From positions 1 through 32,797 of the forward strand of contig CANBXZ010000010.1 of the NCBI GenBank assembly GCA_947373495.1: 32,797 nt of DNA, read 5' to 3'. The position numbers and the translations under genes are program-made. The notes under the pieces were generated by a model that did not search any database, was not told the origin of the DNA, and worked only from the letters and a program-made list of their open reading frames with translations. Shown here in pieces: positions 4,001-32,797 of this stretch. Source of the stretch: Acetobacteraceae bacterium (GTDB taxonomy: Bacteria; Pseudomonadota; Alphaproteobacteria; Acetobacterales; Acetobacteraceae). Numbering within the stretch: position 1 is the stretch's first letter; each line of letters begins with the position of its first letter.

Positions 4001-4284
4001 GCAGCACCACCGCCAAGGGCGCCCCGCGCGCCCCGGCGGCGGCGGCGCGCAAGCCGCGCGCCCCAGGGGCAAGCCGGGCCGGGGCCAAGGGTGCCGCCGC
4101 CAAGGGCGGCGTCCAGGGCGGTGCTCGGCTGGGCCGCCTGGGCAGTTGGGGCTGGGCGGCGCTGCTGGGCATTGGCGTCGTGGTGCTCTCCCCGGTGGTG
4201 CATGCCTTCTGGGGCGATGCCGGGGTGCTGATGCTGGGCATCTTCGGCCTGGGCTTCCTGCTCGGCCGCTGGACCGCCGTTTGA
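3997..4284 (+). CDS. Small two-helix membrane protein with basic Lys/Ala-rich N-terminus
   Basis: This 95-residue frame starts at a GTG that overlaps the thyX stop and ends in a TGA overlapping the next ATG. The first 45 or so residues are unusually rich in Ala, Lys, Arg, Gly and Pro with repeated AKG-type units, resembling a basic histone-like tail. Two hydrophobic segments follow (about residues 50-70 and 75-93), which should span the inner membrane. I do not recognise a family. Coupling at both ends argues that it is a real gene and is made together with ThyX and the HD protein. The basic tail would lie in the cytoplasm if both helices cross the membrane. Confidence 0.7.
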
Positions 4285-7213: not shown

Positions 7214-8832
7214 GGCTTCCCCAGGGCGCGGTCATGGGCGGCGCGCAACGCCGCCGCATCGGGCCGGTGCAGCCGCGCCGCCAGATGCTGGTCCGGCCGC
7301 AGCAGCAGCGCGTCGCCGGCCGCGGCACCCCAGCGCAGCGCCACCAGCCCGGCATGGTCCCACAGCGCGCCAGGCTGTTCGTCCTCCGTCACCAGCACCA
7401 CGGAGATGCCGGCCGGCACCTCCGCCGGCGCGGCGCCGAAGCAAAGCAGGGTGAAATCACCATCGGTGCCCAGGTGGTGCAGCAGCCATTCCGCCCGGCC
7501 GGCATTCAGCACCGGCGCGTCCGGCGGCGGCGCGCCCAGCGCCAGGCCGCTGCCGCCCGGGGTGGACAGCGGCGAGGCATGCAGCGTGGCCGGGCGCGAC
7601 AGCCGGCCGGAGTTCACCAGGGGCCGGGCGAAGGCATGGGTGCTGGCCAGTTGCAGCACCGCGTCGCGATAGGCCTGCGCCGCCGGGTTCTTCGGGGTGA
7701 TGAAATCCGTGCTGCGGGTGCTGTTGAGGATGTTCTCATCCGTGGCCGGGATGCGTTCGTCGTCGTAGCTGTCCAGCAGCGCCTCGGGCGCCTGGCCGGC
7801 CAGCACGGCGGCCAGCTTCCAGCCCAGGTTGTCGGCGTCCTGCACCCCGGCATTGCCGCCGCGGGCGCCGAACGGGGAGACCTGGTGCGCGCTGTCCCCG
7901 GCGAACAGGATGCGGCCGTGGCGGAACTTCTCCAGCCGGCGGCAGCGGAAGGTGTAGACGCTGACCCATTCCAACTCGAACGGAGGCGCCGCCATGCCGC
8001 TGGCGCCTTCCAGCATGGCCTTGACCCGCGAGATCACCCGTTCCGGCTGCTTCTCCACCTCCGGGTCGGCGTCCCAGCCCAACTGGAAGTCGATGCGCCA
8101 GACATTGTCCGGCTGCTTGTGCAGCAGCACGGACTGCCCCGGGTGGAAGGGCGGGTCGAACCAGAACCAGCGTTCGGAGGGGAATTCCGCATGCATCACC
8201 ACATCGGCGATGAGGAAGCGGTCGCGGAAGACCTGGCCGTTGAACGGCAGGTCCAGCCCCTGGCGGATGGTGCTGCGGGCGCCGTCGCAGGCCAGCAGCC
8301 ATTCGGCCCGGATCTGGTAGTCACCTTCCGGCGTGGTCAGGCTCAGTAGCGCGCCGCTGTCCTGTTGTGCCACCGCGGTCACCCGGGTTTTCCAGCGCAG
8401 ATCCACCAGCCCGGTGGCCTCGCAGGCCTCCACCAGCCATGCCTCGGCGTAGTATTGCTGCAGGTTCACGAAGGCCGGGTATTCATGGCCCTGTTCCGGC
8501 AGCAGGTCGAAGCCATAGGCCTCGTTTTCCTGGAAGAAGACCCGGCCGCGCGACCAGGTGATGCCCTTTTCCAGGAAGCGGTCGCCCAGCCCCAGCCGGC
8601 CGAAGATCTCCAGCGTGCGCTTGGCCCAGCAGATGGCGCGGGAGCCGTAGGAGACGGTGTCGTCCTCATCCACCACCACGCTGGCGATGCCACGGCGCGC
8701 CAGGTCCAGCGCCAGGGTCAGCCCGACCACGCCGGCCCCGGCGATGACCACCGGCGCCGCCTCCGGCACCAATGCACCCAGCCCCTTCGGTCGGCGGAAG
8801 GGGTAGCGGGGGTTCTGGTAGGTCGTGGGCAT
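7210..8832 (-). CDS. FAD-dependent monooxygenase (PheA/MhpA-type aromatic hydroxylase family)
   Basis: The 540-residue product has an N-terminal Rossmann GAGVVG at residues 32-37 preceded by hydrophobic beta residues, and a second FAD motif GRILFAGDSAHQVSPFGARGGNAGVQDADNLGWK in the C-terminal half. That is the GD-x-AH-x-x-x-P-x-x-x-x-G-x-N pattern of flavoprotein hydroxylases. A thioredoxin-like C-terminal domain of the phenol-hydroxylase type seems present. Such enzymes hydroxylate phenolic rings with NAD(P)H and O2. No ring-cleavage dioxygenase is adjacent. The open frame extends far upstream, but that part is antisense to another gene, so I place the start at the MPTTYQN ATG. It leads a coupled operon with DUF2783 and an M20 amidohydrolase. 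Confidence 0.9.
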   Translation of the reverse strand: MPTTYQNPRYPFRRPKGLGALVPEAAPVVIAGAGVVGLTLALDLARRGIASVVVDEDDTVSYGSRAICWAKRTLEIFGRLGLGDRFLEKGITWSRGRVFFQENEAYGFDLLPEQGHEYPAFVNLQQYYAEAWLVEACEATGLVDLRWKTRVTAVAQQDSGALLSLTTPEGDYQIRAEWLLACDGARSTIRQGLDLPFNGQVFRDRFLIADVVMHAEFPSERWFWFDPPFHPGQSVLLHKQPDNVWRIDFQLGWDADPEVEKQPERVISRVKAMLEGASGMAAPPFELEWVSVYTFRCRRLEKFRHGRILFAGDSAHQVSPFGARGGNAGVQDADNLGWKLAAVLAGQAPEALLDSYDDERIPATDENILNSTRSTDFITPKNPAAQAYRDAVLQLASTHAFARPLVNSGRLSRPATLHASPLSTPGGSGLALGAPPPDAPVLNAGRAEWLLHHLGTDGDFTLLCFGAAPAEVPAGISVVLVTEDEQPGALWDHAGLVALRWGAAAGDALLLRPDQHLAARLHRPDAAALRAAHDRALGKP

Positions 8833-8997
8833 GAGGCTTTCACAAGCGCAGCCGGGCGCGGATGTCCAGCCGGATTTCGTCACCACGAAGCCGCGAGGAC
8901 GTGCGCGTAATGTATGGCCGCTGCACCGCCCGCCGGTTAGGCTGGCCGGCAGGTGCCGCCGCGCCGGCGTGGCGCGCGTATGGTCTGGAGGAATCGC

Positions 8998-9699
8998 ATG
9001 CTTCGTCGCACGCTGCTGGCCGTGGTGCTGGCCGGGCTGCTCGGGCCGGGCCTGGCGCCCGATGCCCTGGCGCAATCGAATGACCCTTCCTTCCGGATAG
9101 TCAACAACACCCGGCACATCGTGAACGAGGTCTACGCCTCGGCTTCCAGCGAGCGGAACTGGGGCGCCGACCGGCTGGGCAGCGACGTCATCAACCCCGG
9201 CGCCAACTACATCGTCCGGCTGCCGGCCGGGGACTGCAATTACGATGTGCGCGTGGTCTACCAGGGTGGGCTGGCGGAGGAACGCCGGCGGATCAACACC
9301 TGCAACCTGACCGACCTGCAATTGCCGCTGGTGGCCAATGCGCCGGTGCAGCAGGGCCAGGCGCCCCAGGCCCAGCAGCCGCGCCAGCCCCAGCCGCAGG
9401 CCCAGCCGCGCCAGGTGCAGCCTTCCCAGCCGGGCGGGCCGCAAACCGGCAACCCCAGCTTCAACCTGGTGAACCAGAGTGGCCGGGTGATCGAGGAGTT
9501 CTACGCCAGCCCGGGCAGCGCGCGGGACTGGGGCACCGACCGCCTGGGCGACGATACGGTGCGGCCGGGCCAGAGCTACCCGATCCGCCTGCCGCAGGGT
9601 GAATGCGTGTACGACCTGCGGGCCGTGTTCCAGGGCGGCGGCAACCAGGAACGCCGCGGCGTGAATACCTGCACGCTGGATAACTACGTGGTGCGGTAG
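8998..9699 (+). CDS. Secreted protein with two tandem conserved domains
   Basis: A 233-residue protein follows a clear GGAGG ribosome site 6 bases before its ATG. Residues 1-26 form a cleavable signal peptide (RR-hydrophobic-ALA). Two homologous domains follow: about 32-110 (FRIVNNTRHIVNEVYAS...) and 155-232 (FNLVNQSGRVIEEFYAS...). Each contains a W-G-x-D-R-L-G block and a C-x-YD-hR-x-hxxG...NTC pattern (Cys80/Cys102 and Cys203/Cys225), probably one disulfide per domain. A Gln/Pro-rich linker spans roughly 113-150. Similar single-domain exported proteins of unknown function occur in alphaproteobacteria. No enzymatic motif is visible; a periplasmic or surface role is inferred. It is divergent from the FAD monooxygenase gene. 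Confidence 0.85.
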   Translation: MLRRTLLAVVLAGLLGPGLAPDALAQSNDPSFRIVNNTRHIVNEVYASASSERNWGADRLGSDVINPGANYIVRLPAGDCNYDVRVVYQGGLAEERRRINTCNLTDLQLPLVANAPVQQGQAPQAQQPRQPQPQAQPRQVQPSQPGGPQTGNPSFNLVNQSGRVIEEFYASPGSARDWGTDRLGDDTVRPGQSYPIRLPQGECVYDLRAVFQGGGNQERRGVNTCTLDNYVVR

Positions 9700-21295: not shown

Positions 21296-22687
21296 TCAGT
21301 TCCGGAACATCTTGCCCGGGTTGAGGATGCCCTTGGGGTCCAGCGTGGCCTTGATGCTGCGCATCACCGCCAGCGCCTCGGCACCGTGCTCGATCTCCAG
21401 GAACTCGCGCTTGCCGATGCCGATGCCGTGTTCGCCGGAACAGGTGCCGCCCAGCTTCAGGGCGCGGTGGACGATGGCCTTGTCCAGCGTCCAGGCGCGT
21501 TCCAGTGCCGCCGGGTCCTTGTCGTCCACCAGGATGACGGTGTGGAAGTTGCCGTCGCCGACATGGCCGCAGATCGGCGCGGTGAGGCCGGAGGCCAGGA
21601 TATCCGCCTTGGCGCCCAGCAGGGCTTCGTCCAGGCGGGAGATCGGCACGCAGACATCGGTGGCGATGCCGCGCTTGCCGGGTTCCAGCGCCACGCAGGC
21701 CCAATAGGCGTCGTGCCTGGCCTTCCACAGCTTGTTGCGGGTCTCGGCGTCGGTGGCCCAGGCGAAGCCCTTGCCGCCATTGTCGGCGGCGATGGCCTGG
21801 ACCATCTCGGCCTGTTCCTTCACCCCGGCCTCGGTGCCGTGGAACTCCAGGAACAGGCAGGGCGTCGGCGCATAGCCTTCCAGCTTGGAATAGCTGATGC
21901 AGGCGGCCATCTGCACCTCGTCCACCAACTCCATCCGCGCCACCGGCACGCCGGCCTGCAGGGTGGTGATGACGGTGTCCACCGCGCCCTTCAGCGTCTC
22001 GAACTGGCAGACCGCGGCCGAAATCGCCTCCGGAATGCCATGCAGCCGCAGACGGATCCTGGTGATGATGCCGAGCGTGCCCTCGCTGCCGATGACCAGG
22101 CGGGTCAGGTCATAGCCATTGCTGGCTTTCCGCGCGCGACTGCCGGTTTGGATGACGCGGCCATCCGCCAGCACCACTTCCAGCGCCAGCACGTTTTCCT
22201 TGATGGTGCCGTAACGCACCGCGTTGGTGCCGCTGGCCCGGGTGGCGCACATGCCGCCGATGGTGCAGTGGCTGCCCGGGTCCACCGGGAAGAACATGCC
22301 CTGGTCGCGCAGGTATTCGTTCAACTGCTGGCGGGTGACGCCGGGCTCGATCAGGCAGTCCAGGTCCTCGGCGGAGACGTCCAGCACCTTGTTCATGCGG
22401 CTGAGGTCAACGCTGATGCCGCCGCGCACCGGGTTCACATGGCCTTCCAGGCTGGTGCCGGCGCCAAACGGCACCACCGGCACGCCATGCTGGTGGCACA
22501 GCGCCAGCAGGCTGGACACTTCCGCGGTGGTTTCCACGAAGGCCACGGCGTCCGGCAGGGTGGGGGTGGTGGTGTCCTCGCCGCGGCTGTGCTGTTCGCG
22601 CAGCGCGCCGGCGGTGCTCAGGCGGTCGCCAAGCAGGCCACGGGCGGCGGCGATGACGAGTTCAATGGCGGCTGGCGAAGCGTACAT
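21296..22687 (-). CDS. FAD-binding 2-hydroxyacid oxidoreductase (GlcD / D-lactate dehydrogenase type)
   Basis: The 463-residue protein has the FAD-binding type 4 (PCMH) signature PFGAGTSLEGHVNP at 73-86, LIEPGVTRQQLN, DPGSHCTIGGMCATRASG near 136-153 and YDLTRLVIGSEGTLGIIT, then the C-terminal CGHVGDGNFH and SGEHGIGIGKREFL motifs of the VAO/GlcD group. Such enzymes oxidise D-lactate, glycolate or other D-2-hydroxyacids and pass electrons to cytochrome c or quinone. The open frame extends further upstream, but homologues begin near the MYASPAAIEL ATG, which I use. The MFS gene follows 4 bp later. The gene diverges from the HpaI-type aldolase gene, which could make or use the related 2-oxoacid. 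Confidence 0.92.
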   Translation of the reverse strand: MYASPAAIELVIAAARGLLGDRLSTAGALREQHSRGEDTTTPTLPDAVAFVETTAEVSSLLALCHQHGVPVVPFGAGTSLEGHVNPVRGGISVDLSRMNKVLDVSAEDLDCLIEPGVTRQQLNEYLRDQGMFFPVDPGSHCTIGGMCATRASGTNAVRYGTIKENVLALEVVLADGRVIQTGSRARKASNGYDLTRLVIGSEGTLGIITRIRLRLHGIPEAISAAVCQFETLKGAVDTVITTLQAGVPVARMELVDEVQMAACISYSKLEGYAPTPCLFLEFHGTEAGVKEQAEMVQAIAADNGGKGFAWATDAETRNKLWKARHDAYWACVALEPGKRGIATDVCVPISRLDEALLGAKADILASGLTAPICGHVGDGNFHTVILVDDKDPAALERAWTLDKAIVHRALKLGGTCSGEHGIGIGKREFLEIEHGAEALAVMRSIKATLDPKGILNPGKMFRN

Positions 22688-22798
22688 GGCGTTGTCCCCT
22701 TGCGGCCGGCCTAACATGGGGCGGGGCGGCAGAGGAAGCGACCTTCGGCGCATGGCTGCCACCCCGCGCGGGGCATCGCCGCCCGGCAGGCGCCGCCG

Positions 22799-22862
22799 GG
22801 GCAACCACCGGCCTGGGCAACCACCGGCCTGGGTGACCGCCGGCCTGGGTGACCACTGACCT
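22799..22862. repeat. 16-bp tandem repeat, four copies, in a divergent promoter region
   Basis: Units gggcaaccaccggcct occur at 22799-22814 and 22815-22830 (identical), followed by gggtgaccgccggcct (22831-22846) and gggtgaccactgacct (22847-22862). The array lies in the 263-bp gap between the divergent FAD oxidoreductase and aldolase genes. Confidence 0.92.
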
Positions 22863-22884
22863 GGGCGCCCCGCAGGCAGGGGTG

Positions 22885-22904
22885 ATTTGCGTGGCGGGGC
22901 AAAT
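22885..22904. promoter_or_regulatory. Inverted repeat upstream of the aldolase gene
   Basis: ATTTGC (22885-22890) and GCAAAT (22899-22904) are separated by 8 bp, 46 bp before the aldolase ATG, with GCTCTA just downstream as a possible weak -10. It could be an operator; no protein is assigned. Confidence 0.35.
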
Positions 22905-22950
22905 GCTCTAGCGTCCGCCTCCTCGAAAAGCCGCACCCCAGGGGGAAATC

Positions 22951-23712
22951 ATGGCGAACAAGGTCAAGGAAGCGTGGAAGGCCGGCAAGGCCGTGGTGAA
23001 CGGCTGGCTCGCCATCCCCAATGCGTTCAGCGCCGAAATGTACAGCCAGTGCGGCTGGGACAGCGTGACGGTGGACATGCAGCATGGCGTGCAGGACTAC
23101 CTTTCCTGCGTGTCCTGCTTCCAGGGCATGGCGCCTTCGGGCGTGACGCCGATGGTGCGGGTGCCGTGGAATGAGCCGGGCATCATCGGCAAGGTGCTGG
23201 ACGCCGGCGCCTATGGCGTGATCTGCCCGATGATCAACACCGCCCAGGAAGCCGCCAACCTGGTGCAGTTCAGCAAGTACCCGCCGCACGGCACGCGCTC
23301 CAACGGCCCGATCCGCGCCGGCGCCTACGGTTCCTCGGGCAGCTACCAGAAGACCGCGAATGACGAGATCCTGGTCATTCCGATGATCGAGACCAAGACC
23401 GCGATCGAGAACATCCAGTCGATCCTCGACGTGCCCGGCATCGACGGCATCTACATCGGCCCGTCCGACCTTTCCTTCAGCTATGGCAAGGAGCCGAAGC
23501 TGGACGTGGAAGACCCGGAGATCCTGGCGATCTACGAGATGCTGCTGAAGGAATGCGGCAAGCGCGGCATTTCCGCCGGCCTGCACAATGGCAGCCCGGC
23601 CTATGCCAACCGCATGATCAAGATGGGCTTCAAGCTGGTCACCATCAGCAACGAAGTCGGCCTGATGGTGAATGCCGCCAAGTCCGCGGTGAAGGAAGCC
23701 CGCGGCGGCTGA
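22951..23712 (+). CDS. HpcH/HpaI-type class II 2-oxoacid aldolase
   Basis: The 253-residue protein matches metal-dependent HpaI/RhmA/GarL aldolases: His45 in VDMQHG (general base), Arg70 in MVRVPW (pyruvate carboxylate), Glu147 in PMIET and Asp173 in GPSDLS as the metal ligands. These enzymes split 4-hydroxy-2-oxoacids into pyruvate and an aldehyde. The exact substrate is not evident; aldehydes from sugar-acid or aromatic degradation are candidates. A GGGGGA ribosome site lies 6 bases before the ATG. The gene is monocistronic, closed by a strong terminator, and divergent from a 2-hydroxyacid oxidoreductase gene. Confidence 0.92.
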   Translation: MANKVKEAWKAGKAVVNGWLAIPNAFSAEMYSQCGWDSVTVDMQHGVQDYLSCVSCFQGMAPSGVTPMVRVPWNEPGIIGKVLDAGAYGVICPMINTAQEAANLVQFSKYPPHGTRSNGPIRAGAYGSSGSYQKTANDEILVIPMIETKTAIENIQSILDVPGIDGIYIGPSDLSFSYGKEPKLDVEDPEILAIYEMLLKECGKRGISAGLHNGSPAYANRMIKMGFKLVTISNEVGLMVNAAKSAVKEARGG

Positions 23713-23734: not shown

Positions 23735-23768
23735 GGCCGGCCGGGGCGATGCCCTGGCCGGCCTTTTT
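23735..23768 (+). terminator. Intrinsic terminator of the aldolase gene
   Basis: A 13-bp stem (23735-23747 with 23751-23763, one G-U pair) closed by a GAT loop is followed directly by TTTTT (23764-23768). It is the clearest Rho-independent terminator in the window. The last T overlaps the stop codon of the convergent Fe-S protein gene. Confidence 0.9.
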
Positions 23769-25762
23769 CAATTCAGGTCCTCGGCGGTGCGCGGCCGTGG
23801 CCGGGGCGTGCCGGCATAGGGGTCCAGCCCGCCGGTGGTGGCTTCCACCACGCGGCAATCCTCGCACAATTCCAGCACCGCCAGCCGGGCCGGGTCGCTG
23901 AACATCCAGTGCCCGCTGGCGGCCAGCTTGGCCTTCACCCGGGCGATGCTGGACCGGGTGCCGAAGGGCTTGGCGCAACGGGTGCAGGGGAAGGGCTCCT
24001 CCGCCTTCACCACCTGCGGCCGGGCCGCCTCGGGGGCGAAGTTCAGCCGCGGCGCCAGGGAGATGACCTGTTCCGGGCAGGTGGCCACGCACAGCCCGCA
24101 TTGCACGCAGGCATCCTCCAGGAAGCTGAGTTCCGGCCGTTCCGGGTTGGCGCTGAACGCCTGGGTCGGGCAGGCCATGGTGCAGGCCAGGCACAGGGTG
24201 CAGCCGGCGGCGGCCACCTGCGCGGCGCCGAACGGGGCCCCCGCCGGCATCGGCACCAGCAGCGGGCCCTCGGCCGGGCGCAACGCCACCAGCGCCTGCT
24301 TCAGCACCTCGCGCGGGCTGCCCAGCGCCAGGAAGCTGGCCGGCGCCCAGGCCAGCCGCGGCAATGGCGCTCGCAGCGCCTCGCCCAGGGTGAAGGGGTC
24401 GTCGGTCTCGATCGCCGCCAGCTGGGCCGGGCCAGCCTCCAGCCGCAGCCCGGCCAGCGCGGCGGCCAGGTAGTCCAGGTTCTGCAGCGCGCCGGCCACG
24501 CCATGCGGCCGGTGGGCCGGCAGCAGCAGCCGCACCCCGGCGGCGCCCCAGGCCAGCGCGGCGGCCAGCGTCGCCAGGTCCAGTTGGGAAACCTCGTTCA
24601 CCCGCAGCGGCAGCACCCGCGCGGGCAGGCCCTCGCCATGCCGGGCCAGGGCGTCCAGCAGCGCCTCGCCATGGGTTTCGTCGTGCAGCAGCAGCACCGC
24701 GTCGCTGCCGCCGGCCGCGGTGTAGCCCTGCAGCAGCGTGCGCAGCCGGGCCAGGGTGAAGCCGGGCGGCGGCAGGGCATAGCTGGCCGCGCCGGTCGGG
24801 CATACCGCGGCACAGGCGCCGCAGCCGGCGCAGATCTCGGCGCTGAGCAGCACGCTGTCCTTGCCCGGGGTGATGGCGCCGGTCGGGCACAACGCCAGGC
24901 AGCGGGAGCAGCCGGTGCGCTTGTTGCGGCTATGCGCGCACAACCCGGCCTCGAACCTTATGAAGCGGGGCTTGTCGAACTCGCCCACCAATTCGCCGGC
25001 GGCGGCCACCAGGCGCTCCACCTCGGCGGCATTGTCGGGGTTGGCGCGCAGGTAGCCCTGGCGGGTCTCGGCCAGCGGGAACAGCGCCGCATCGCCGGTC
25101 AGGTCCAGCACCAGGTCGGCGCGGGACCGGGCGGCATCCCGCGCCGGGCCCCAGGCATAGGCGGCGCGAGACGCCGGGGAGGGTGCGGCATAGCCGTCCA
25201 CCACCACCTCGAAGGCGCCGAGCCAGCCGGTGGCGGTGCGGGCGCGGCCGCGCAGCACCGGGTATTCCACCTGGCGCGGCGGGGTTACCGGCTGGGAGCC
25301 GTTCAGCAGCACGGTCAGGTCCAGCTTGTGCTTCAGCCGCTCGGCCACGGCCAGGGCGGTGGCGTCGCGCCCCAGCAGCAGGGCCACGCCTTCGCTGCGC
25401 AGCCCCACCAGCGGGGTTTCCGGCGCCGGCAAGGCGGCGGCGGCCAGCAGGGCGGCCATCTTCGGCGCGGCCGCGGCGGCTTCGGTGGACCAGCCGGCGG
25501 TCTCGCGCAGGTTGGCGAAGGCCAGTGGCAGGGTGAAGCCGGCAGCCTCGGCTTCCTGGGTGAACAGCGGGGCTTCCTGGGTGCAGCCCACGGTCAGCGG
25601 CCGGCCTTCCGCCAGCGCGGCCTGGAAGCGTTCCAATTGGGTGCGGCACAGGTTCTCGGCGCCGCGCAGCTGGTCGCCGGCGCCGGCGCCACGGGCCAGG
25701 GCGCGCAGGTCCAGCGGCATGCTGTCTTCGCAGGTGCAGGCAAAAATGGTGCGACCGGTCAT
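23768..25762 (-). CDS. Polyferredoxin-like 4Fe-4S protein of the formate dehydrogenase region
   Basis: The 664-residue cytoplasmic protein has an N-terminal pattern C9-x-C11...C39...C60, then two groups of ferredoxin motifs. Group 1 is Cys275 plus Cys285-x2-Cys288-x3-Cys292-Pro, followed by C311-x2-C-x2-C-x3-C321-Pro. Group 2 is C521-x2-C-x2-C-x3-C531-Pro and C552-x2-C-x2-C-x3-C562-Pro. A stretch of about 200 residues without cysteine (322-520) separates the groups. The C-terminus has C593-x2-C596 and C633-x2-C636, like a zinc ribbon or rubredoxin knuckle pair. Up to four 4Fe-4S clusters could form an electron wire. It is transcribed away from the formate dehydrogenase accessory operon and probably acts with it. 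There is no signal peptide. Its exact role is unknown. Confidence 0.88.
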   Translation of the reverse strand: MTGRTIFACTCEDSMPLDLRALARGAGAGDQLRGAENLCRTQLERFQAALAEGRPLTVGCTQEAPLFTQEAEAAGFTLPLAFANLRETAGWSTEAAAAAPKMAALLAAAALPAPETPLVGLRSEGVALLLGRDATALAVAERLKHKLDLTVLLNGSQPVTPPRQVEYPVLRGRARTATGWLGAFEVVVDGYAAPSPASRAAYAWGPARDAARSRADLVLDLTGDAALFPLAETRQGYLRANPDNAAEVERLVAAAGELVGEFDKPRFIRFEAGLCAHSRNKRTGCSRCLALCPTGAITPGKDSVLLSAEICAGCGACAAVCPTGAASYALPPPGFTLARLRTLLQGYTAAGGSDAVLLLHDETHGEALLDALARHGEGLPARVLPLRVNEVSQLDLATLAAALAWGAAGVRLLLPAHRPHGVAGALQNLDYLAAALAGLRLEAGPAQLAAIETDDPFTLGEALRAPLPRLAWAPASFLALGSPREVLKQALVALRPAEGPLLVPMPAGAPFGAAQVAAAGCTLCLACTMACPTQAFSANPERPELSFLEDACVQCGLCVATCPEQVISLAPRLNFAPEAARPQVVKAEEPFPCTRCAKPFGTRSSIARVKAKLAASGHWMFSDPARLAVLELCEDCRVVEATTGGLDPYAGTPRPRPRTAEDLN

Positions 25763-25826
25763 CTGGGCGGCTTTCCCCGGGGGCTGGCCGGCCTATATGG
25801 GCGCCGCAGCGCCAACTGGCGAGGTT

Positions 25827-25845
25827 CCACTTGAAGGTCATGTGG
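25827..25845. promoter_or_regulatory. Imperfect inverted repeat between divergent formate dehydrogenase genes
   Basis: CCACTTGA-AGG-TCATGTGG is an 8-3-8 inverted repeat with one mismatch, centred in the 193-bp gap between the Fe-S protein and DUF6505 genes. It overlaps a possible -35 (TTGAAG, 25831-25836) for the plus-strand operon. It could be the site where both directions are co-regulated. Confidence 0.4.
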
Positions 25846-25955
25846 TGCGCGGGCTACAGGAATAAGTTCCTTTCACCCCTGGCAGGGAGATGTCGTTTGT
25901 CCGAAACCCACGCCTTTCCCTTGCCGCCGCGCGATGGCGCCGGGCGCGCCCCGGC

Positions 25956-26471
25956 ATGCTGAAGCTGCCCCGCACCCTGCGGCTGGACCCTTCGGACGCC
26001 GTGGTGTTCGAGGTTGCGGCCCAGCCCGGCGAATGGGCGGTGCCCGGCGGCTTCGCCTTCTGGGATGAAGCCCCGGAAGCCATGGCCGGCAAGCGCCGCC
26101 AGGCGTTCCGGGCCGGCTGGCTGGGGCTGGGCAGTTTCGGCTGGTCCACCCTGGTGGAGGTGGCGGCGGCGACTCCGGCCGAGCACCAGGCCGCGCAGGC
26201 GGCGCTGGCCCGGCATATCCTGGCCCAGTGCGGCGCCCCGGACCTGGCGGCGGCCACCGCGGCGGCGGCCGAGGAACTCCAGTTCGCCGCCAGCCTGTGC
26301 GACCATCCGCCCGGCACCGTGCTGGCGCTGGCCCGCAGCCTGCGCCAGGGCGAGGTGGTGGAGAGCTTCCGCAGCCTGCATCGGCGGCAGGCGGCGCCGG
26401 TCTTCGCCCTGGTGGCCGAGGACGATACCCCGGCCGAGGCCGTTGACCTGAGGAACCTGCCGCATGGCTGA
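25956..26471 (+). CDS. DUF6505-type protein, formate dehydrogenase region
   Basis: The 171-residue product starting at MLKLPRTLRLDPSDAVVFE has the pattern I associate with DUF6505: LRTLRLDPSD, a GEWAVPGGFAFWD block, LGLGSFGWSTLVEV and ELQFAASLCDHPPGTVLALAR near residue 105. No catalytic motif, membrane segment or metal-binding cysteine cluster is evident. I chose the ATG at 25956 because the conserved part starts there. An earlier in-frame ATG at 25890 would add 22 arginine-rich residues that look like non-coding translation. The last 8 bp overlap the next gene. It is the first gene of the operon that leads to formate dehydrogenase, so a maturation role is plausible but unproven. Confidence 0.7.
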   Translation: MLKLPRTLRLDPSDAVVFEVAAQPGEWAVPGGFAFWDEAPEAMAGKRRQAFRAGWLGLGSFGWSTLVEVAAATPAEHQAAQAALARHILAQCGAPDLAAATAAAAEELQFAASLCDHPPGTVLALARSLRQGEVVESFRSLHRRQAAPVFALVAEDDTPAEAVDLRNLPHG

Positions 26472-27480
26472 CTACTGGTTGGCCTCTGGCCATGCCTTCT
26501 GCGACCTGGATGCCGATGGCCGGCTGCTGGCCACGCCGGCGCTGTGGCGGGCCTTCCTCGCCCGGCCGGAACTGGTGCCGCCGCCGGAAGCCTGCGCCGC
26601 CGAGCGCGCGCTGCATGCCGGGCTGCTGGCCGAACCGCTGCGCGCGGTGCCGGCGGCCGAGGTGGCGGCGCTGGCGGACCCCGACGCGCGGGAGAACTGG
26701 CAGGTGTTCCTGGCCTTCCGCGACCGGGTGGCGGCGCAACCGACTCTGGAGGCGGCCTGGCTGGCGCTGTACGGCGCGGATGTGCACGGCGTGCCGCCGC
26801 TGTTCCTGCAGATGCTGACGCATCTGGTGGCCTATGCCGCCCTGGCCGGGGAGCCGGATGCCTTCGCCTGGCGCGCCGCCGAATGCCTGTTCCGGCCGCA
26901 GCGCGCCGCCATCCACCAGGGCGCCCTGCTGCTGGCGGATGAGGAGGTGGTGGACGCCCGCGCCGCGGATGGCGACCTGGGGGCGCTCGGCCGGCTGCTG
27001 ACCGAGGCTGGCGCGCCACCGCCGACGGTGGAGTTGGATGTGCTGTCCGAGGACCTCGCCCCCGGCTACCCGGGCCGCAGCGATGCGCACGACCTGGCGC
27101 TGGATATCGCCGAGGGCCGCCCCGGCCAGCGCGGCCTGGCGCGGGCGCTGGAACGCTTCATCCAGCATGTGCTGGGGGAGACGGTCCGCATCACCGCCGT
27201 GCCGGTGATTGCCGACGCGCCGTGGATTTTGGGCCTGGACAGCGAGGCGACGCGGATCGGCAATGCGCTGTGGCGCGGCGAGGCGGTGGCGCAGGCGGAG
27301 TTGGCGCGCATCCTGTGGCTGGGTGAGTTGCGCTTCGCCGAGGAATCCCGCGTGCTGCCGCGCGCCCAGGGCCGCCCGGTGGTGCTGGCGCTGGCGATGG
27401 ACGTGGCCCAGCGGGTGCGGCTGAAGCCGCAGAACCTGGTGGCCGGGCTGCCGCTGCTGGCGCGGGGGAAGGGCGCATGA
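26464..27480 (+). CDS. DUF6352-type protein, formate dehydrogenase region
   Basis: The 338-residue protein begins MADYWLASGHAFCDLDADGRL and has the blocks I associate with DUF6352: LVPPPEACAAERALHAGLLA, DARENWQVFLAFRDRV, an AAECLFRPQRA segment, ELDVLSEDLAPGYPGRSDAHD and a C-terminal RPVVLALAMDVAQRVRLKPQNLVAGLPL. No known catalytic motif is visible. Large parts look alpha-helical, with a mixed C-terminal domain. The start overlaps the DUF6505 stop by 8 bp and its TGA overlaps the DUF3305 ATG (ATGA), so all three are translated together. The role is unknown; context points to formate dehydrogenase assembly or electron transfer. Confidence 0.75.
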   Translation: MADYWLASGHAFCDLDADGRLLATPALWRAFLARPELVPPPEACAAERALHAGLLAEPLRAVPAAEVAALADPDARENWQVFLAFRDRVAAQPTLEAAWLALYGADVHGVPPLFLQMLTHLVAYAALAGEPDAFAWRAAECLFRPQRAAIHQGALLLADEEVVDARAADGDLGALGRLLTEAGAPPPTVELDVLSEDLAPGYPGRSDAHDLALDIAEGRPGQRGLARALERFIQHVLGETVRITAVPVIADAPWILGLDSEATRIGNALWRGEAVAQAELARILWLGELRFAEESRVLPRAQGRPVVLALAMDVAQRVRLKPQNLVAGLPLLARGKGA

Positions 27481-27947
27481 CGCCCGAGACCGAAACCCGC
27501 CAGGTGGCGGTGCTGGCCGAACGCCGGCGCGGGGCCACCCCCTGGCAGGACTGGGTATGGCAGGCGGTGGAGGTGCTGGAACAGGCGCCCGACCTGCCGG
27601 CCTGGTCCGTGCTGCGGCAGGATGAGCGGGCGACGCTGTACTTCGCCGGGCTGGCCGAGGTGGCGCTGCACCCGACCGACACCGACAATTACCGCCACAA
27701 CCTGGCCGCCGGCGCGGCCCGTGTCTGGGTGGTGCTGCGGCCGCTGCAAACCCAGGCCATGCCCGAGGTGGCGCTGCATTGCGTCACGGTGGATGCCGGC
27801 GAGGCGCACAACTATGCCGATGTCGGCAACGACCTGATGGAGGCGCTGCCGCTGCCGCCCGGCCTGGCCGCCTGGGTGGCCGATTTCTGCGAGCGCCACC
27901 ACAAGGAACGCCAGTTCCGCAAGCGCCGCCGGGACGCCAAGTCATGA
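27477..27947 (+). CDS. DUF3305 protein, formate dehydrogenase region
   Basis: The 156-residue protein has the DUF3305 pattern: VAVLAERRRGATPWQDWVWQAVEVL near the N-terminus, the central TLYFAGLAEVALHPTDTDNYRHNLAA block, VWVVLRP, and a C-terminal basic FCERHHKERQFRKRRRD. DUF3305 and DUF3306 proteins occur as a pair beside formate dehydrogenase genes in many alpha- and betaproteobacteria. Their function is not established. The basic C-terminus could bind nucleic acid, a membrane or an acidic partner. Its start and stop both overlap the neighbouring genes by ATGA. Confidence 0.85.
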   Translation: MTPETETRQVAVLAERRRGATPWQDWVWQAVEVLEQAPDLPAWSVLRQDERATLYFAGLAEVALHPTDTDNYRHNLAAGAARVWVVLRPLQTQAMPEVALHCVTVDAGEAHNYADVGNDLMEALPLPPGLAAWVADFCERHHKERQFRKRRRDAKS

Positions 27948-28549
27948 GCCCGGCCGACGATCAGGCCACGGGCGATGGCGGGTTCTTCTCGCGCTGGTCC
28001 CGGCTGAAGCGCGGCGCGGCCACGCCCGAGTCGGCGCCGGCAGCCGTGGTGGTGGAGCCGGCGGCAGTACCGGTGGAGGTACCGGCGGAAACACGGGTGG
28101 AAGCGCCGCCGGAGCCCGCGTTCGACCTTTCCCTGCTGCCCACGCTGGAGGAGTTGACCCCGGCGAGCGACATTCGCGGCTTCCTGCACCGCGCGGTGCC
28201 GGCCGGGCTGCGCAACGCGGCGCTGAAGCGGATGTGGGCGTTGGACCCGGCGATCCGGGATTTCGTCGGGCCGGTGGACTATGCCTGGGACTTCAATACG
28301 CCCGGGGGCCTGCCCGGCATCGCCGAGGCGATGGGCGGCGATGTCAGCGAGATGCTGGCCCGGGTGATCGGCGCCGCGCCGCCCCCGCAACCGCCAGCGG
28401 TCGGGGAGGATGTGGCGGAACCGGCGCCGCCCGCTGCCCTCATGGCCGAGGCGCCGTCCCCCGAGGTGCTCCCCCTCGACGTAACGGTGGCCGAGGCCGC
28501 GCCGGCCCCGCCGGTGGCGCGGCGGCATGGCTCGGCCCTGCCGATTTAG
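27944..28549 (+). CDS. DUF3306 protein, formate dehydrogenase region
   Basis: The 201-residue protein has the DUF3306 core FFSRWSRLKRG near residue 14 and LPTLEELTPASDIRGFLHRAVPAGLRNAALKRMWALDPAIRDFVGPVDYAWDFNTPGG at about 64-121, the usual signature block. Both flanks are Ala/Pro/Glu/Val-rich low complexity (about 25-60 and 140-195), so the conserved module is small. It is translated from an ATG overlapping the DUF3305 stop. After its TAG there is a 66-bp gap before the TorD gene, the first break in the coupled series. Function is unknown; pairing with DUF3305 suggests a complex. Confidence 0.85.
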   Translation: MSPADDQATGDGGFFSRWSRLKRGAATPESAPAAVVVEPAAVPVEVPAETRVEAPPEPAFDLSLLPTLEELTPASDIRGFLHRAVPAGLRNAALKRMWALDPAIRDFVGPVDYAWDFNTPGGLPGIAEAMGGDVSEMLARVIGAAPPPQPPAVGEDVAEPAPPAALMAEAPSPEVLPLDVTVAEAAPAPPVARRHGSALPI

Positions 28550-28615
28550 GGCCAAGGGGCGGTAACCAGCATCTTGGCGCTTGCGAATTCCTCCGTACAT
28601 CAACCATTAGTGACA

Positions 28616-29251
28616 ATGAACAGCCACCCTTGCGTGGTGGCGGATGAAATGACGTGGGGCATGGCGGCTAGGGCGGGCATGGCAGGCGGTGATCCGCTGG
28701 ATATGGAACGGGCGCGGGTGTTTGCCCTGCTCGGCCATGTGCTGGCGGCCGCGCCCGATGCGGCGCTGTTGCAGCGCCTGGGGGCGCTGCCGGGGGATGC
28801 CTCGGCCTTGGGCAAGGCGCTGGCCGGCCTGGCCGCGGCGGCGCGGGTCACCTCGGCCGCGGCGGTGCAGCGGGAATACCTGGCGCTGTTCGTCGGCGTG
28901 GCGCGGGGCGAGTTGCTGCCCTACGCCAGCTACTACCTGACCGGCTTCCTGCATGAACGGCCGCTGGCGGCGTTGCGGGCGGAAGTGGCCCGGCTGGGCA
29001 TTGCCCGGGCGGCGGGTGTGGCCGAGCCGGAAGACCATATCGCCTTTTGCTGCGAAGCCATGGCCGGCCTGCTTGCGGGCCGGTTCGAGGGCGATGCCGA
29101 GGCCTTCCTGGCCCGGCACCTGATGCCCTGGGCCGGCCGCTGCTTCGCCGACCTGGAGGCGGCCGAGGCCGCCAGCTTCTACCGCGCGGTGGGCGCCTTT
29201 GGCCGCACCGTGATGGACATCGAGACCGCTGCCGCCGACATGGCGGCCTGA
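28616..29251 (+). CDS. TorD-family chaperone for formate dehydrogenase
   Basis: The 211-residue product is all helical and carries the TorD/DmsD signature: the central YLALFVGVARGELLPYASYYLTGFLHERPL around residues 88-117 and EPEDHIAFCCEAMAGL near 137-152. TorD-family chaperones bind the twin-arginine leader and help insert the molybdenum cofactor before export. The start is uncertain: I give the first ATG after the gap (28616), but later in-frame ATGs (28649, 28661, 28679, 28703) are possible, because conserved helix 1 begins only at MERARVFALL. The small Tat protein and FdhA genes follow directly, so FdhA is the likely client. Confidence 0.88.
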   Translation: MNSHPCVVADEMTWGMAARAGMAGGDPLDMERARVFALLGHVLAAAPDAALLQRLGALPGDASALGKALAGLAAAARVTSAAAVQREYLALFVGVARGELLPYASYYLTGFLHERPLAALRAEVARLGIARAAGVAEPEDHIAFCCEAMAGLLAGRFEGDAEAFLARHLMPWAGRCFADLEAAEAASFYRAVGAFGRTVMDIETAAADMAA

Positions 29252-29271
29252 CTTCGCCGGGAGACGACGTG

Positions 29272-29493
29272 ATGACCGAAAAGAATACGGCCGAACGCCG
29301 CGGCTTCCTGAGGGCGCTGGGCTTGGCGGCCGTGGCCGCGCCCGCCGCCGCCAGCGCCGCCGAGACGCCGCACCGCGCCGACAGCGTGCCGGCCGCCAGC
29401 GCCCAGAAGGAAGCCCAGGGCGACCGCCTGAAGGCACGCTACCAGGGCGAAAGCGCGCATGTGCAGGCGTTCTACGCCACCAACCGGTACTGA
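29272..29493 (+). CDS. Small twin-arginine protein of the formate dehydrogenase region
   Basis: The 73-residue protein has a twin-arginine leader ERRGFLRALGLAAVAAPAAASA at residues 8-29 and a short mature part ending RLKARYQGESAHVQAFYATNRY. This matches the conserved short family described as a formate dehydrogenase region Tat target. GGGAGA lies 6 bases before the ATG. It lies between the chaperone gene and fdhA, separated by 20 and 17 bp. Export by the Tat route is expected; the function of the small mature peptide is unknown. It may associate with the FdhAB complex. Confidence 0.9.
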   Translation: MTEKNTAERRGFLRALGLAAVAAPAAASAAETPHRADSVPAASAQKEAQGDRLKARYQGESAHVQAFYATNRY

Positions 29494-29510
29494 GCGGGAG
29501 ACGCCCGGAC

Positions 29511-32432
29511 ATGCTCATCAAGCGCAGCGACGGCAAGGTGGCGCGGCAGCGCCTGGCTTCCGCCTACCAGGGACTTTCGGCCGGCGGGCTGGACCGGCGC
29601 GGCTTCCTGCGCCAGGCCGGCCTGGGTGGCGCCGGGCTGGCGGCGCTGGGCGCCCTGCCGGCACTGACCACGCGGCGGGCCGAGGCCGGGCCGACCAACT
29701 TCGCCCAGCCGATCACCCGCAGGAAGAACATGTGCACCCATTGTTCGGTGGGCTGTTCGGTCATCGCGGAAGTGCAGAACGGCGTCTGGGTGGGCCAGGA
29801 GCCGGCCTGGGAAAGCCCGATCAACCGCGGCACCCACTGCGCCAAGGGCGCCAGCGTGCGCGAGATCGTTCACGGCGACCGCCGGCTGAAATACCCGATG
29901 AAGCTGGTGAACGGCGAATGGCAGCGGCTTTCCTGGGCCACCGCGGTCGAGGAGATCGGTGCCAAGATGGCCGCGATCCGCGCCAATAACGGGCCGGACA
30001 GCGTGTTCCTGCTGGGCAGCGCCAAGTTCACCAACGAAGCCGCCTATCTGTTCCGCAAGTTCGCCGCCTTCTGGGGCACCAACAACGTCGACCACCAGGC
30101 CCGCATCTGCCATTCCACCACGGTGGCGGGGGTGGCCAACACCTGGGGCTACGGCGCCCAGACCAACAGCTACAACGACATCCGCAACGCCAAGACCATG
30201 ATCATCATGGGTGGCAACCCGGCGGAAGCGCACCCGGTTTCGCTCCAGCACGTGCTGACCGGCAAGGAAGTGAACCGCGCGAACCTCATCGTCATCGACC
30301 CGCGCTTCACCCGCACCGCGGCGCACGCCACCGAATATGTCCGCATTCGCCCGGGCACCGACATTCCCATCATGTGGGGCATGCTCTGGCACATCTTCCG
30401 CAACGGCTGGGAAGACAAGGACTTCATCGCCCAGCGCGTGCACGGCATGGACGACGTCCGCAAGGAGGTCGAGAAGTGGGACCCGGCGGAAGTTGAGCGC
30501 GTCACCGGCGTGCCGGGCGCGCAGATGGAACGCATCAGCAAGCTGTTCGCCACTGAAAAGCCCAGCACGCTGATCTGGTGCATGGGGGTCACCCAGCACA
30601 CCGTCGGCACCGCCAATGTGCGCGCGCTGTGCACGCTGCTGCTGGCCACCGGCAATGTCGGCGCGCCGGGCACCGGGGCGAACATCTTCCGCGGCCACAC
30701 CAACGTGCAGGGCGCCACCGACCTGGGCCTGGATGTGACCACGCTGCCGGCCTACTACGGCCTGGACGAGAACGCCTGGCGCCATTGGTGCCGGGTGTGG
30801 GAAGTGGACTACGCCGCCATGCAGGGCCGCTTCGGCTCCAAGGCGTTGATGGAACTGCCCGGCATTCCCAGCACGCGCTGGTTCGACGCCACCATGATGC
30901 CGGGCGAGAAGGACAAGGCCGGCGCCGGCGAGAACTACGTGCAGCAGCCCGACAACTACAAGGGCATGGTGGTGTTCGGCCACGGCGGCAACACCGTGAC
31001 CCGCATGCCCGAGATGGTGAAGGGGCTGGAGAAGCTGGAACTGCTGGTGGTGGCGGACCCGCACCCCACCACCTTCGCCCAGATCAGCGGCCGCAAGGAC
31101 GGCACCTACCTGCTGCCGATCTGCACCAGCTTCGAGATGGATGGCAGCCGCACCGCCTCCAACCGGTCGTTGCAGTGGGGCGAGAAGATCGTCGAGCCGA
31201 TCTTCGAATCCAAGAGCGACTATGAGGCGATCTACCTGCTGGCCAAGCGGCTGGGCTTCGCCGAGCAGATGTTCAAGAACATCAAGGTGGAGAACGACCA
31301 GCCGCTGGCCGAGGACCTGCTGCGGGAGATCAACCGCGGCGCCTGGAGCATCGGCTACACCGGCCAAAGCCCGGAACGGCTGAAACTGCACATGGCGAAC
31401 CAGGACCAGTTCGACATCGTGACGCTGCGCGGCAAGCCCGGCACCCCGGTGGCGGGCGACTTCTATGGCCTGCCCTGGCCCTGCTGGGGCACGCCGGAAC
31501 AGAAGCACCCGGGCAGCCACCAGCTGTACAACACCAACCTGCACGTGAAGGAAGGCGGCGGCACCTTCCGCGCCCGCTTCGGCGTGGAGCGCAACGGCCA
31601 GACCCTGCTGGCCGAGGGCAGCTATTCCAAGGGCAGCGAGATCCAGGACGGCTACCCCGAGTTCACCGTGGCGGTGCTGAAGCGCCTGGGCTGGCTGGAG
31701 GAACTGACCGAGGCCGAGCGCGCCAGCATCGAGCGGCATTTCGGCCCGAACATCGACCGCGCGAGCTGGGCCAACGACCTGTCGGGCGGCATCCAGCGGG
31801 TGGCGATGGAACATGGCTGCGTGCCCTATGGCAACGCCAAGGCCCGCGCCAATGCCTGGAACCTGCCGGACCCGGTGCCGGTGCATCGCGAGCCGATCTA
31901 CACCTCGCGCACCGACCTGATCGCCAAGTACCCGACCCTGCCGGACCGGCGCGGATTCCGCATGCCGCACCTGGGCGTTTCGGTGCAGAACCGCTCGACC
32001 GAGGTGGTGAAGGACTTCCCCATCATCCTCTCCTCCGGCCGGCTGGTGGAATACGAGGGCGGCGGCGAGGAAACCCGGTCGAACAAGTGGCTGGCCGAGT
32101 TGCAGCAGGACATGTTCGTGGAGATCAACCCGGCCGACGCGGCCGAGCGCAGCATCCAGGATGGCGGCTGGGTCTGGGTGATGGGCCCGGAGAACGCCAG
32201 CAAGGCGAAGATGAAGGCGCTGGTGACCGAGCGGGTCGCCCGCGGTGTCGCCTGGATGCCGTTCCACTTCGGCGGCTGGTTCCAGGGCGAGGATCGCCGC
32301 AAGTACTACCCGCCGGGCACCGACCCGGTGGTGCTGGGCGAAAGCGTCAATACCCTGACCACCTATGGCTACGACCCGGTGACCTACATGCAGGAAACCA
32401 AGTGCACGCTCTGCCAGATTCGCGCGGCGTAA
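29511..32432 (+). CDS. fdhA: Formate dehydrogenase major (catalytic, molybdopterin) subunit
   Basis: The 973-residue protein opens with a Tat signal (LDRRGFLRQAGLGGAGLAAL, Arg29-Arg30). A 4Fe-4S site is formed by Cys75, Cys78, Cys82 and Cys110 (CTHCSVGC...C). The molybdenum ligand position is Cys200 in ARICHSTTVAGV, followed by the conserved His201; in selenoenzymes this position is Sec. The rest follows the bis-MGD dimethyl sulfoxide reductase family (MGGNPAEAHPVSLQH, VIDPRFTRTAAHA, GATDLGLD, and a C-terminal molybdopterin-binding end). It oxidises formate to CO2 on the periplasmic face. The Fe-S subunit gene follows after 16 bp. GC content and codon use match the neighbours. Confidence 0.97.
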   Translation: MLIKRSDGKVARQRLASAYQGLSAGGLDRRGFLRQAGLGGAGLAALGALPALTTRRAEAGPTNFAQPITRRKNMCTHCSVGCSVIAEVQNGVWVGQEPAWESPINRGTHCAKGASVREIVHGDRRLKYPMKLVNGEWQRLSWATAVEEIGAKMAAIRANNGPDSVFLLGSAKFTNEAAYLFRKFAAFWGTNNVDHQARICHSTTVAGVANTWGYGAQTNSYNDIRNAKTMIIMGGNPAEAHPVSLQHVLTGKEVNRANLIVIDPRFTRTAAHATEYVRIRPGTDIPIMWGMLWHIFRNGWEDKDFIAQRVHGMDDVRKEVEKWDPAEVERVTGVPGAQMERISKLFATEKPSTLIWCMGVTQHTVGTANVRALCTLLLATGNVGAPGTGANIFRGHTNVQGATDLGLDVTTLPAYYGLDENAWRHWCRVWEVDYAAMQGRFGSKALMELPGIPSTRWFDATMMPGEKDKAGAGENYVQQPDNYKGMVVFGHGGNTVTRMPEMVKGLEKLELLVVADPHPTTFAQISGRKDGTYLLPICTSFEMDGSRTASNRSLQWGEKIVEPIFESKSDYEAIYLLAKRLGFAEQMFKNIKVENDQPLAEDLLREINRGAWSIGYTGQSPERLKLHMANQDQFDIVTLRGKPGTPVAGDFYGLPWPCWGTPEQKHPGSHQLYNTNLHVKEGGGTFRARFGVERNGQTLLAEGSYSKGSEIQDGYPEFTVAVLKRLGWLEELTEAERASIERHFGPNIDRASWANDLSGGIQRVAMEHGCVPYGNAKARANAWNLPDPVPVHREPIYTSRTDLIAKYPTLPDRRGFRMPHLGVSVQNRSTEVVKDFPIILSSGRLVEYEGGGEETRSNKWLAELQQDMFVEINPADAAERSIQDGGWVWVMGPENASKAKMKALVTERVARGVAWMPFHFGGWFQGEDRRKYYPPGTDPVVLGESVNTLTTYGYDPVTYMQETKCTLCQIRAA

Positions 32433-32448
32433 GGGGAGGGATCAGACC

Positions 32449-32797
32449 ATGGCTCGGATGAAGTTCCTCTGTGACGCGGACCGTTGCATCGAGTGCAACG
32501 CCTGCGTCACCGCCTGCAAGAACGAACACGAGGTGCCCTGGGGCATCAACCGCCGCCGGGTGGTGACGCTGAACGACGGCAAGCCCGGCGAGCGCAGCAT
32601 CTCCATGGCGTGCATGCACTGCACGGATGCACCCTGCGCCGCGGTCTGCCCGGTGAGCTGCTTCTACACCACGGCCGATGCCATCGTGCTGCACGACAAG
32701 GACCTGTGCATCGGCTGCGGCTATTGCTTCTACGCCTGCCCGTTCGGCGCGCCGCAATACCCGCGCGTCGGCAATTTCGGCGGTCGCGGCAAGATGG
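32449..32797 (+). CDS. fdhB: Formate dehydrogenase iron-sulfur (beta) subunit, 5' part
   Basis: The first 116 residues are visible and the frame is cut by the window edge. Cys13/16/19/23, Cys55/58/63/67 and Cys87/90/93/97 follow the C-x2-C-x2-C-x3-C and C-x2-C-x4-C-x3-C spacing of the electron-transfer subunits that serve bis-MGD enzymes. AGGGGAGGG lies a few bases before the ATG (32449). It would take electrons from FdhA and pass them to a membrane cytochrome b subunit, expected just downstream but outside the window. No signal peptide is visible; such subunits are usually carried out by the Tat leader of the large subunit. Confidence 0.93.
   Translation, partial: MARMKFLCDADRCIECNACVTACKNEHEVPWGINRRRVVTLNDGKPGERSISMACMHCTDAPCAAVCPVSCFYTTADAIVLHDKDLCIGCGYCFYACPFGAPQYPRVGNFGGRGKM

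Follow-up and report, generated by a model that had tools for sequence, protein, structure and literature searches.

Introduction

The Escherichia coli formate dehydrogenases FdnGHI and FdoGHI are exported molybdenum enzymes that carry a bis-molybdopterin guanine dinucleotide (bis-MGD) cofactor and a twin-arginine translocation (Tat) signal, and they depend on FdhD and FdhE. A 2023 review (PMC10609526; our statements on published articles refer to the parts of them available to us) describes a systematic association of FdhE with periplasmic formate dehydrogenases, and reports that FdhM, a TorD homologue, is needed for the biogenesis of a formate dehydrogenase in Campylobacter jejuni. Two further protein families, DUF3305 and DUF3306, were located upstream of 60% of the dmsD-fdhGHI operons (Bay 2015, PMC4464133). 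Here, we analyzed a 32,797-nucleotide stretch of DNA from an Acetobacteraceae bacterium (the window, positions 1-32797), which is the entire contig C10 of a 469-contig assembly (genome G000, 85% complete). Its region 23768-32797 encodes an FDH3-type formate dehydrogenase together with DUF3305, DUF3306, DUF6352, DUF6505, a TorD-family chaperone and a polyferredoxin. This gene set is probably a dedicated cytoplasmic, FdhE-independent maturation module for the FDH3-type exported formate dehydrogenase.

The locus shares with the E. coli systems an exported, Tat-directed bis-MGD enzyme and the presence of FdhD, which was found in 41/41 of the genomes that carry FDH3 in our survey (PF02634; the copy of the window's own genome lies on contig C85). 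It differs from them in that 39 of these 41 genomes are without FdhE and all 41 carry DUF3305 and DUF3306, neither of which was matched in the E. coli control; the polyferredoxin also occurs in all 41, E. coli being outside the search for this protein. As with NarJ, TorD, DmsD and FdhM, a TorD-family gene lies within the window's fdh operon, but here it is joined by DUF3305, DUF3306 and the polyferredoxin, and in one relative it is fused to DUF3306. The dmsD-fdhGHI operons have the same DUF3305/DUF3306 pair upstream of their fdh genes, although the available part of Bay 2015 gives the pair no function; DUF6352 and DUF6505 appear nowhere in that paper. The FDH3 of Methylorubrum extorquens (fdh3ABC) belongs to the same FDH3 beta equivalog, and three Methylorubrum loci (L204, L210, L215) share the gene set; the available parts of the M. 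extorquens FDH3 literature searched, including PMC12445348, assign no function to the accessory genes. The string DUF does not occur in the review PMC10609526, and DUF6352 and DUF6505 are named in no paper of the literature searched. The enzyme, the TorD/FdhD logic and the linkage of DUF3305/DUF3306 to fdh are thus already known, and the initial annotation, which had presented the locus as an undescribed system, went too far in view of Bay 2015. What is new, as far as the literature searched extends, is the exact co-occurrence of the gene set, the relationship of the polyferredoxin to HdrA, the fusion of DUF3306 to TorD, the match of DUF3305 to the tail of a MobA-DUF3305 model, and the lack of FdhE in nearly all FDH3 genomes.

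Organization of the operon

The window genes were identified by translation and by Pfam and NCBIfam scans. Their layout is as follows.

23768-25762, minus strand: polyferredoxin, 664 aa, with an HdrA-like N-terminal part, two ferredoxin modules, an MvhD/FlpD-like middle and a C-terminal CxxC...CxxC (Pfam Fer4 matches)
25193-25762, minus strand: HdrA-like N-terminal region of the polyferredoxin, residues 1-190 (HdrA profile matches in the PDB)
24227-24775, minus strand: MvhD/FlpD-like region of the polyferredoxin, residues 330-512 (weak similarity)
25763-25955: divergent spacer of 193 bp between polyferredoxin and DUF6505; the BPL_LplA_LipB_2-type gene is absent here
25956-26471, plus strand: DUF6505 (PF20115), 171 aa; 193.9 bits against a cut-off of 23.9, E 1.6e-57
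26464-27480, plus strand: DUF6352 (PF19879), 338 aa; 174.7 bits against a cut-off of 25, E 3.9e-51
27477-27947, plus strand: DUF3305 (PF11749), 156 aa; 132.6 bits against a cut-off of 25, E 1.5e-38
27944-28549, plus strand: DUF3306 (PF11748), 201 aa; 65.6 bits against a cut-off of 25, E 9.5e-18
28616-29251 (or from a TTG at 28574), plus strand: TorD/NarJ-family chaperone, 211 aa; PF02613/Nitrate_red_del, 103.1 bits against a cut-off of 22.2, E 1.6e-29
29272-29493, plus strand: small twin-arginine protein of fdh regions, 73 aa; TIGR02811 at 31.7 bits, E 1.5e-07, below the cut-off of 48.45, and TAT_signal_seq at 18.4 bits against a cut-off of 16.7
29511-32432, plus strand: FdhA, 973 aa, Tat signal LDRRGFLRQ
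32449-32797, plus strand: FdhB (FDH3 beta; NF038355), 116 codons up to the contig end

All genes that the initial annotation had named in this region were present at their coordinates, as was the 193-bp divergent spacer, according to the translations and to Pfam matches above cut-off. It had further described the DUF proteins as fused into the operon, which is wrong in the protein sense, as they are encoded by separate, overlapping genes. The stop/start overlaps that it had seen leading into TorD hold for the four DUF genes (8, 4 and 4 nt in order) and end there, since DUF3306 and TorD are separated by a gap of 66 nt, or of 24 nt if TorD begins at the TTG. No promoter-like site emerged between 25700 and 28700 in a sigma-70-type scan, which covers that promoter type alone.

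The Molybdop_Fe4S4, Molybdopterin and Molydop_binding families were all matched by FdhA above the Pfam cut-off. Its twin-arginine signal, read by eye from the translation, is LDRRGFLRQAGLGG. The FdhA motif QARICHS places a cysteine at what we take to be the position where other formate dehydrogenases have selenocysteine. A selenocysteine enzyme was rejected, with cysteine found at the searched pattern in 35 of 39 catalytic subunits and the other four giving no pattern match. FdhB is cut because the window ends where the contig ends; the 116-residue fragment scores 221.8 bits with NF038355, whose cut-off is 240 bits. A complete FDH3 beta copy, at 337.5 bits, is found on contig C130 of the same assembly, where FdhB is followed by FdhC, MobB and MoeA. 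This second copy stands at the contig start (C130, locus L139, 1-639) and shows 93.9% identity over 393 bases to window 32405-32797. It reflects either a tandem or paralogous fdhAB, or strain variation that broke the assembly.

Co-occurrence and linkage with FDH3

The distribution of the families was surveyed in a single set of 249 genomes of the phylum, for which a completeness of at least 90% was requested and to which the window's own genome was added. DUF3305, DUF3306 and an FDH3 beta match above cut-off are each present in 41 of these genomes, and the 41 are identical, although the shared ancestry of genomes inflates any co-occurrence probability. Some FDH3 beta match occurs in 236 of the 249, and those below cut-off were taken as other ferredoxin-like proteins. 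The 41 FDH3 genomes span 25 genera, and five families (f2, f8, f12, f33 and f56) mix carriers with non-carriers. This patchy presence inside families suggests that the gene set was gained and lost jointly. Neither DUF3305 nor DUF3306 was found in 14 control genomes including E. coli. The linkage to fdh proposed in the initial annotation is borne out by the neighbourhood survey: the distance from DUF3305 to the FDH3 fdhB is 2.9-11.3 kb in 41/41 genomes, and DUF3306 occurs in the same 41. A chance neighbourhood was rejected on the basis of this co-occurrence and spacing.

The polyferredoxin was detected, with one match each, in all 41 FDH3 genomes and in none of 39 chosen non-carriers, by a middle-domain model whose rows were supplied by 15 of the 41 genomes and by none of the other 26. 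DUF6352 (18/249 genomes) and DUF6505 (22/249) occur exclusively within the 41. DUF6352 is no more than 3.3 kb away from DUF3305 in 13 of its 18 genomes and unlinked in G016, G019, G175, G194 and G238; for DUF6505 the distance to DUF3305 is at most 5.7 kb in 21 of its 22 genomes, with G016 as the unlinked case. The genomes with unlinked copies nonetheless have FDH3.

Gene order was compared in 37 operon loci from 36 FDH3 genomes; in addition, G000 is represented by the window, and G066, G133, G163 and G208 are not included. DUF3305, DUF3306, TorD, the Tat protein, FdhA, FdhB and FdhC are common to all 37. The polyferredoxin is present in 35, the two without it being L119, a second operon copy in G174, and L121 of G016. 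By reading, its gene and the adjacent gene of the operon point away from each other in 20/37 loci; in 14/37 the polyferredoxin gene sits within the operon, between DUF3306 and TorD; L117 differs. A second set comprised 80 named loci found via DUF6352, the best 80 of 540 confirmed. They come mostly from Acetobacteraceae such as Belnapia, Roseococcus and Roseomonas, with an uncultured Rhodospirillales bin as the nearest, at 88%. DUF3305 is present in 78 of these loci, DUF3306 in 74, the polyferredoxin in 74 and FdhA in 62, in line with the proposed linkage; short contigs or contigs cut at an end account for 16 of the 18 loci that do not show FdhA. In 66/80, the polyferredoxin gene and the next gene of the operon are divergently oriented. 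The same cluster, with a gene named fdh3B, appears on annotated Sinorhizobium meliloti, Microvirga and Sagittula plasmids; DUF3305 is not listed in the Microvirga table, which is incomplete, and Sagittula has no DUF6352. In Shewanella oneidensis, SO4503 (FdhD), SO4506 (iron-sulfur protein) and SO4509 (FdhA) match the gene order (PMC2535785).

Genes for molybdenum cofactor synthesis and sulfuration, and for an Mrp/NUBPL-type ATPase, lie near some of the loci. Close to the 37 operon loci, FdhD was found in 16, Mrp/NUBPL in 15, MoeA in 9, MobA in 7 and MobB in 5; close to the 80 named loci, the counts are 45 for MoeA, 40 for MobB, 28 for MobA, 24 for FdhD and 6 for Mrp. Examples of Mrp, MobB and MoeA were checked with Pfam, and MobA is the label given to a sequence cluster. 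FdhE_N (PF04216) was matched in 38 of the 249 genomes and in two of the 41 with FDH3 (G204 and G233). In both, FdhE lies more than 2 Mb from the FDH3 operon, and in G233 it adjoins a copy of FdhD. The window's own genome, at 85% completeness, gave no FdhE match, and the E. coli control did.

Properties of the DUF proteins

A direct connection between DUF3306 and the chaperone was found at L119 (G174:C97:552000-571999), where one 358-residue frame contains DUF3306 (residues 1-114, 65.8 bits) and a TorD-family domain (193-312, 107.2 bits), both above the Pfam cut-off. The fusion lies at 8539-9678 of this locus, and the genome also has a fuller copy of the FDH3 operon. DUF3305 is connected to molybdenum cofactor synthesis by NF011058 (MobA with DUF3305), to positions 219-364 of 382 of which the window protein aligns with 98.6 bits (E 2.7e-28). 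The window protein consists of the DUF3305 domain only, with no MobA domain, and its score is below the NF011058 cut-off of 820 bits.

The four DUF proteins appear soluble. Their maximum 19-residue Kyte-Doolittle means are 1.09-1.44, compared with 2.27 for FdhC; the polyferredoxin reaches 1.77, within a ferredoxin stretch. Neither the hydropathy profiles nor inspection by eye revealed a transmembrane-like stretch or a signal peptide, respectively, in any of the five proteins. The label "putative membrane proteins" in Bay 2015 and its statement that fdhD/fdhE are located in trans in species with TorDfdh do not fit the hydropathy and the FdhE survey presented here.

Confident AlphaFold2 single-chain models were obtained for DUF6352 (predicted local distance difference test 91.2, predicted template modelling score 0.89) and DUF3305 (94.0 and 0.86). 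Their best Foldseek E values were 0.88 and 0.50, and their VIA-align Z scores peaked at 4.9 (54 residues aligned) and 2.6 (83 residues), respectively. These missing PDB matches are no demonstration that the folds are new. Sequence-profile searches of the PDB with DUF6352, DUF6505 and DUF3305 returned nothing informative. Profile-profile comparison brought out no similarity of DUF6505 to the ligase-like protein, to DUF3305 or to DUF6352.

The ligase-like protein is encoded by a biotin/lipoate-ligase-like gene (BPL_LplA_LipB_2-type), present in 75 of the 80 named loci and usually placed directly before DUF6505; PF16917 was matched by 20/20 scanned members. No such gene is found in the window spacer, which has no room for it, in the window's own assembly (0 matches) or in the nearest relative, L142. 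The alignment of the protein contains no invariant lysine, which, judged by what is generally held of BirA and LplA, points to a protein without ligase activity.

An HdrA-related polyferredoxin

To characterize the polyferredoxin, a PDB profile search was run with its N-terminal 268 residues, the ferredoxin modules being excluded. The profile matched HdrA, subunit A of heterodisulfide reductase, an electron-handling enzyme of methanogenic archaea (8rvv, E 3.1e-05; 8rvu, 3.3e-05; 5odc, 3.1e-04), and nothing else below 1. The likeness covers the N-terminal region as far as the beginning of the nucleotide-binding domain, and the LGAFEV/GNFKV segment aligns weakly. Cysteines C9, C11, C39 and C60 are invariant in the 19 rows aligned, out of 23 homologues with the HdrA-like region; the region is missing from the other 8 of 31, six of them in families f41, f43 and f63, plus L208 and L211. 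The protein differs from HdrA in its second ferredoxin module, its CxxC...CxxC tail, its fdh operon context and the loss of the motif for flavin adenine dinucleotide (FAD). GRDATA replaces the FAD motif GxGxx[G/A] in the window protein, and the pattern is matched in 2 and unmatched in 29 of the 31 homologues. Judging from these alignments, the polyferredoxin is probably derived from HdrA and no longer binds FAD.

Two ferredoxin modules and the CxxC...CxxC tail are conserved among the homologues. The similarity of the middle region to MvhD/FlpD is weak, with PF02662/FlpD in 3 of 31 members at a best E of 0.05 and 9sfi_K at E 0.83. A profile of the C-terminal CxxC...CxxC gave zinc-finger matches that depend on the short motif, and FdhE was not among the 60 of its 210 matches listed. 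At L102, L106 and L110 (G190, G019 and G238), an extra ferredoxin-like insertion was seen by eye after the HdrA-like region.

A proposed maturation module and its alternatives

Since a Tat signal marks FdhA for export and the accessory proteins appear soluble and, by eye, have no signal peptide, these proteins would meet FdhA only before its export. A role in maturation is favoured by this timing combined with the fusion to TorD, the MobA-type model, the molybdenum cofactor genes and the lack of FdhE. Of the maturation or cytoplasmic electron-delivery complex suggested in the initial annotation, the first option is thus supported by the fusion, the MobA-DUF3305 model and the nearby molybdenum cofactor and FdhD genes; the second is disfavoured, as the Tat signal of FdhA and the apparent solubility of the accessory proteins make electron delivery to the mature enzyme unlikely. 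For the individual biochemical steps, we infer the following scheme. The TorD chaperone would hold apo-FdhA (with FdhB), and DUF3306 would tether TorD. DUF3305 may aid the handover of the bis-MGD molybdenum cofactor, supplied by MobA and sulfurated by FdhD. The iron-sulfur relay of the polyferredoxin most plausibly provides electrons or redox checking while the metal centres are being completed, ahead of Tat export. DUF6505 and DUF6352, joined in relatives by the ligase-like protein, may act as an accessory layer that about half of the FDH3 genomes possess. A more specific version, which we put forward tentatively and regard as somewhat less than an even chance, is that a flavin-less HdrA-derived relay recruited from energy metabolism feeds electrons into cofactor insertion or activation of apo-FdhA, with DUF3306 linking the relay to TorD and DUF3305 linking it to the molybdenum cofactor supply.

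Several observations weigh against a maturation module. The mutual avoidance of FdhE and DUF3305, taken by itself, is not significant (2/41 vs 36/208, Fisher p 0.055). Bay 2015 (PMC4464133) places fdhD and fdhE in trans in species with TorDfdh, which disagrees with FdhE in 2/41 here, and S. oneidensis has both an FDH3-like cluster and fdhE (SO0104, near fdnGH; PMC2535785). The DUF3306-TorD fusion is unique among the loci examined, and its second-copy operon has no polyferredoxin nearby. No MobA-DUF3305 fusion was found in 369 genomes of another class (E 1e-50), a search in which the controls also gave no match; the link of DUF3305 to MobA therefore comes from the NF011058 model by itself. Foldseek and VIA-align yielded no PDB match that would reveal the chemistry of DUF6352 or DUF3305. 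In G016, some 32 kb separate the polyferredoxin gene and the operon, and a protein so rich in iron-sulfur sites could serve another cytoplasmic redox partner. Finally, L164 and L173, full 21-kb stretches, have no fdhA in the stretch. These two loci carry DUF3305, DUF3306, DUF6352, DUF6505, the ligase-like gene and the polyferredoxin.

In methanogens, Fdh-MvhD-HdrA assemblies pass on formate electrons. By analogy, the HdrA/MvhD-like polyferredoxin and the DUF proteins could carry formate-derived electrons to an acceptor in the cytoplasm, by way of FdhC or otherwise; the HdrA homology, the two Fer4 dicluster-type modules and the weak MvhD/FlpD signal speak for this. We consider this unlikely, given an exported FdhA, an FAD motif unmatched in nearly all homologues and a DUF3306 fused to a chaperone. 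It is less likely still that the polyferredoxin and the DUF proteins sense redox, molybdenum or formate status and control FDH3 production: the frequent divergent orientation of the polyferredoxin gene and the zinc-finger-like profile matches (zf-H2C2_2, weak in 2/31 members, best E 0.056) point that way, but these matches depend on a short motif, no good DNA-binding family match was found among the 25 families listed, and 14 of the 37 operon loci have the gene within the operon itself, between DUF3306 and TorD. The least probable alternative is that the proteins are not assembly factors but belong to the mature enzyme complex, as subunits with a structural role or one in docking to the membrane. 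Strict co-occurrence with FDH3 beta is consistent with such subunits, and the available part of Bay 2015 (PMC4464133) calls DUF3305 and DUF3306 putative membrane proteins; the four DUF proteins, however, contain no near-transmembrane stretch and, by eye, no signal peptide.

A maturation module would give families without known function one common role and would tell which genes need co-expression for active FDH3 in other hosts. Since 39 of 41 FDH3 genomes are without FdhE and all 41 have DUF3305, DUF3306 and the polyferredoxin, what completes FDH3 is directly testable. An HdrA relative in an assembly role would be unexpected, and the flavin-less relay, if true, would represent a new kind of molybdoenzyme assembly factor.

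Neighbouring genes

An FAD-linked oxidase gene (minus strand) and an HpcH/HpaI aldolase-like gene (plus strand) adjoin the operon at window 21296-23712, as identified by eye. In relatives, a small DUF6494 protein adjoins FDH3 operons, and a WD40-repeat protein is encoded in 16/37 operon loci. Examples of these two genes are found at 3974-4180 and 4281-5576 of L222 and at 4697-4888 of L224. The representative of the WD40-repeat cluster, from L109, has a c-type cytochrome-like tail by eye.

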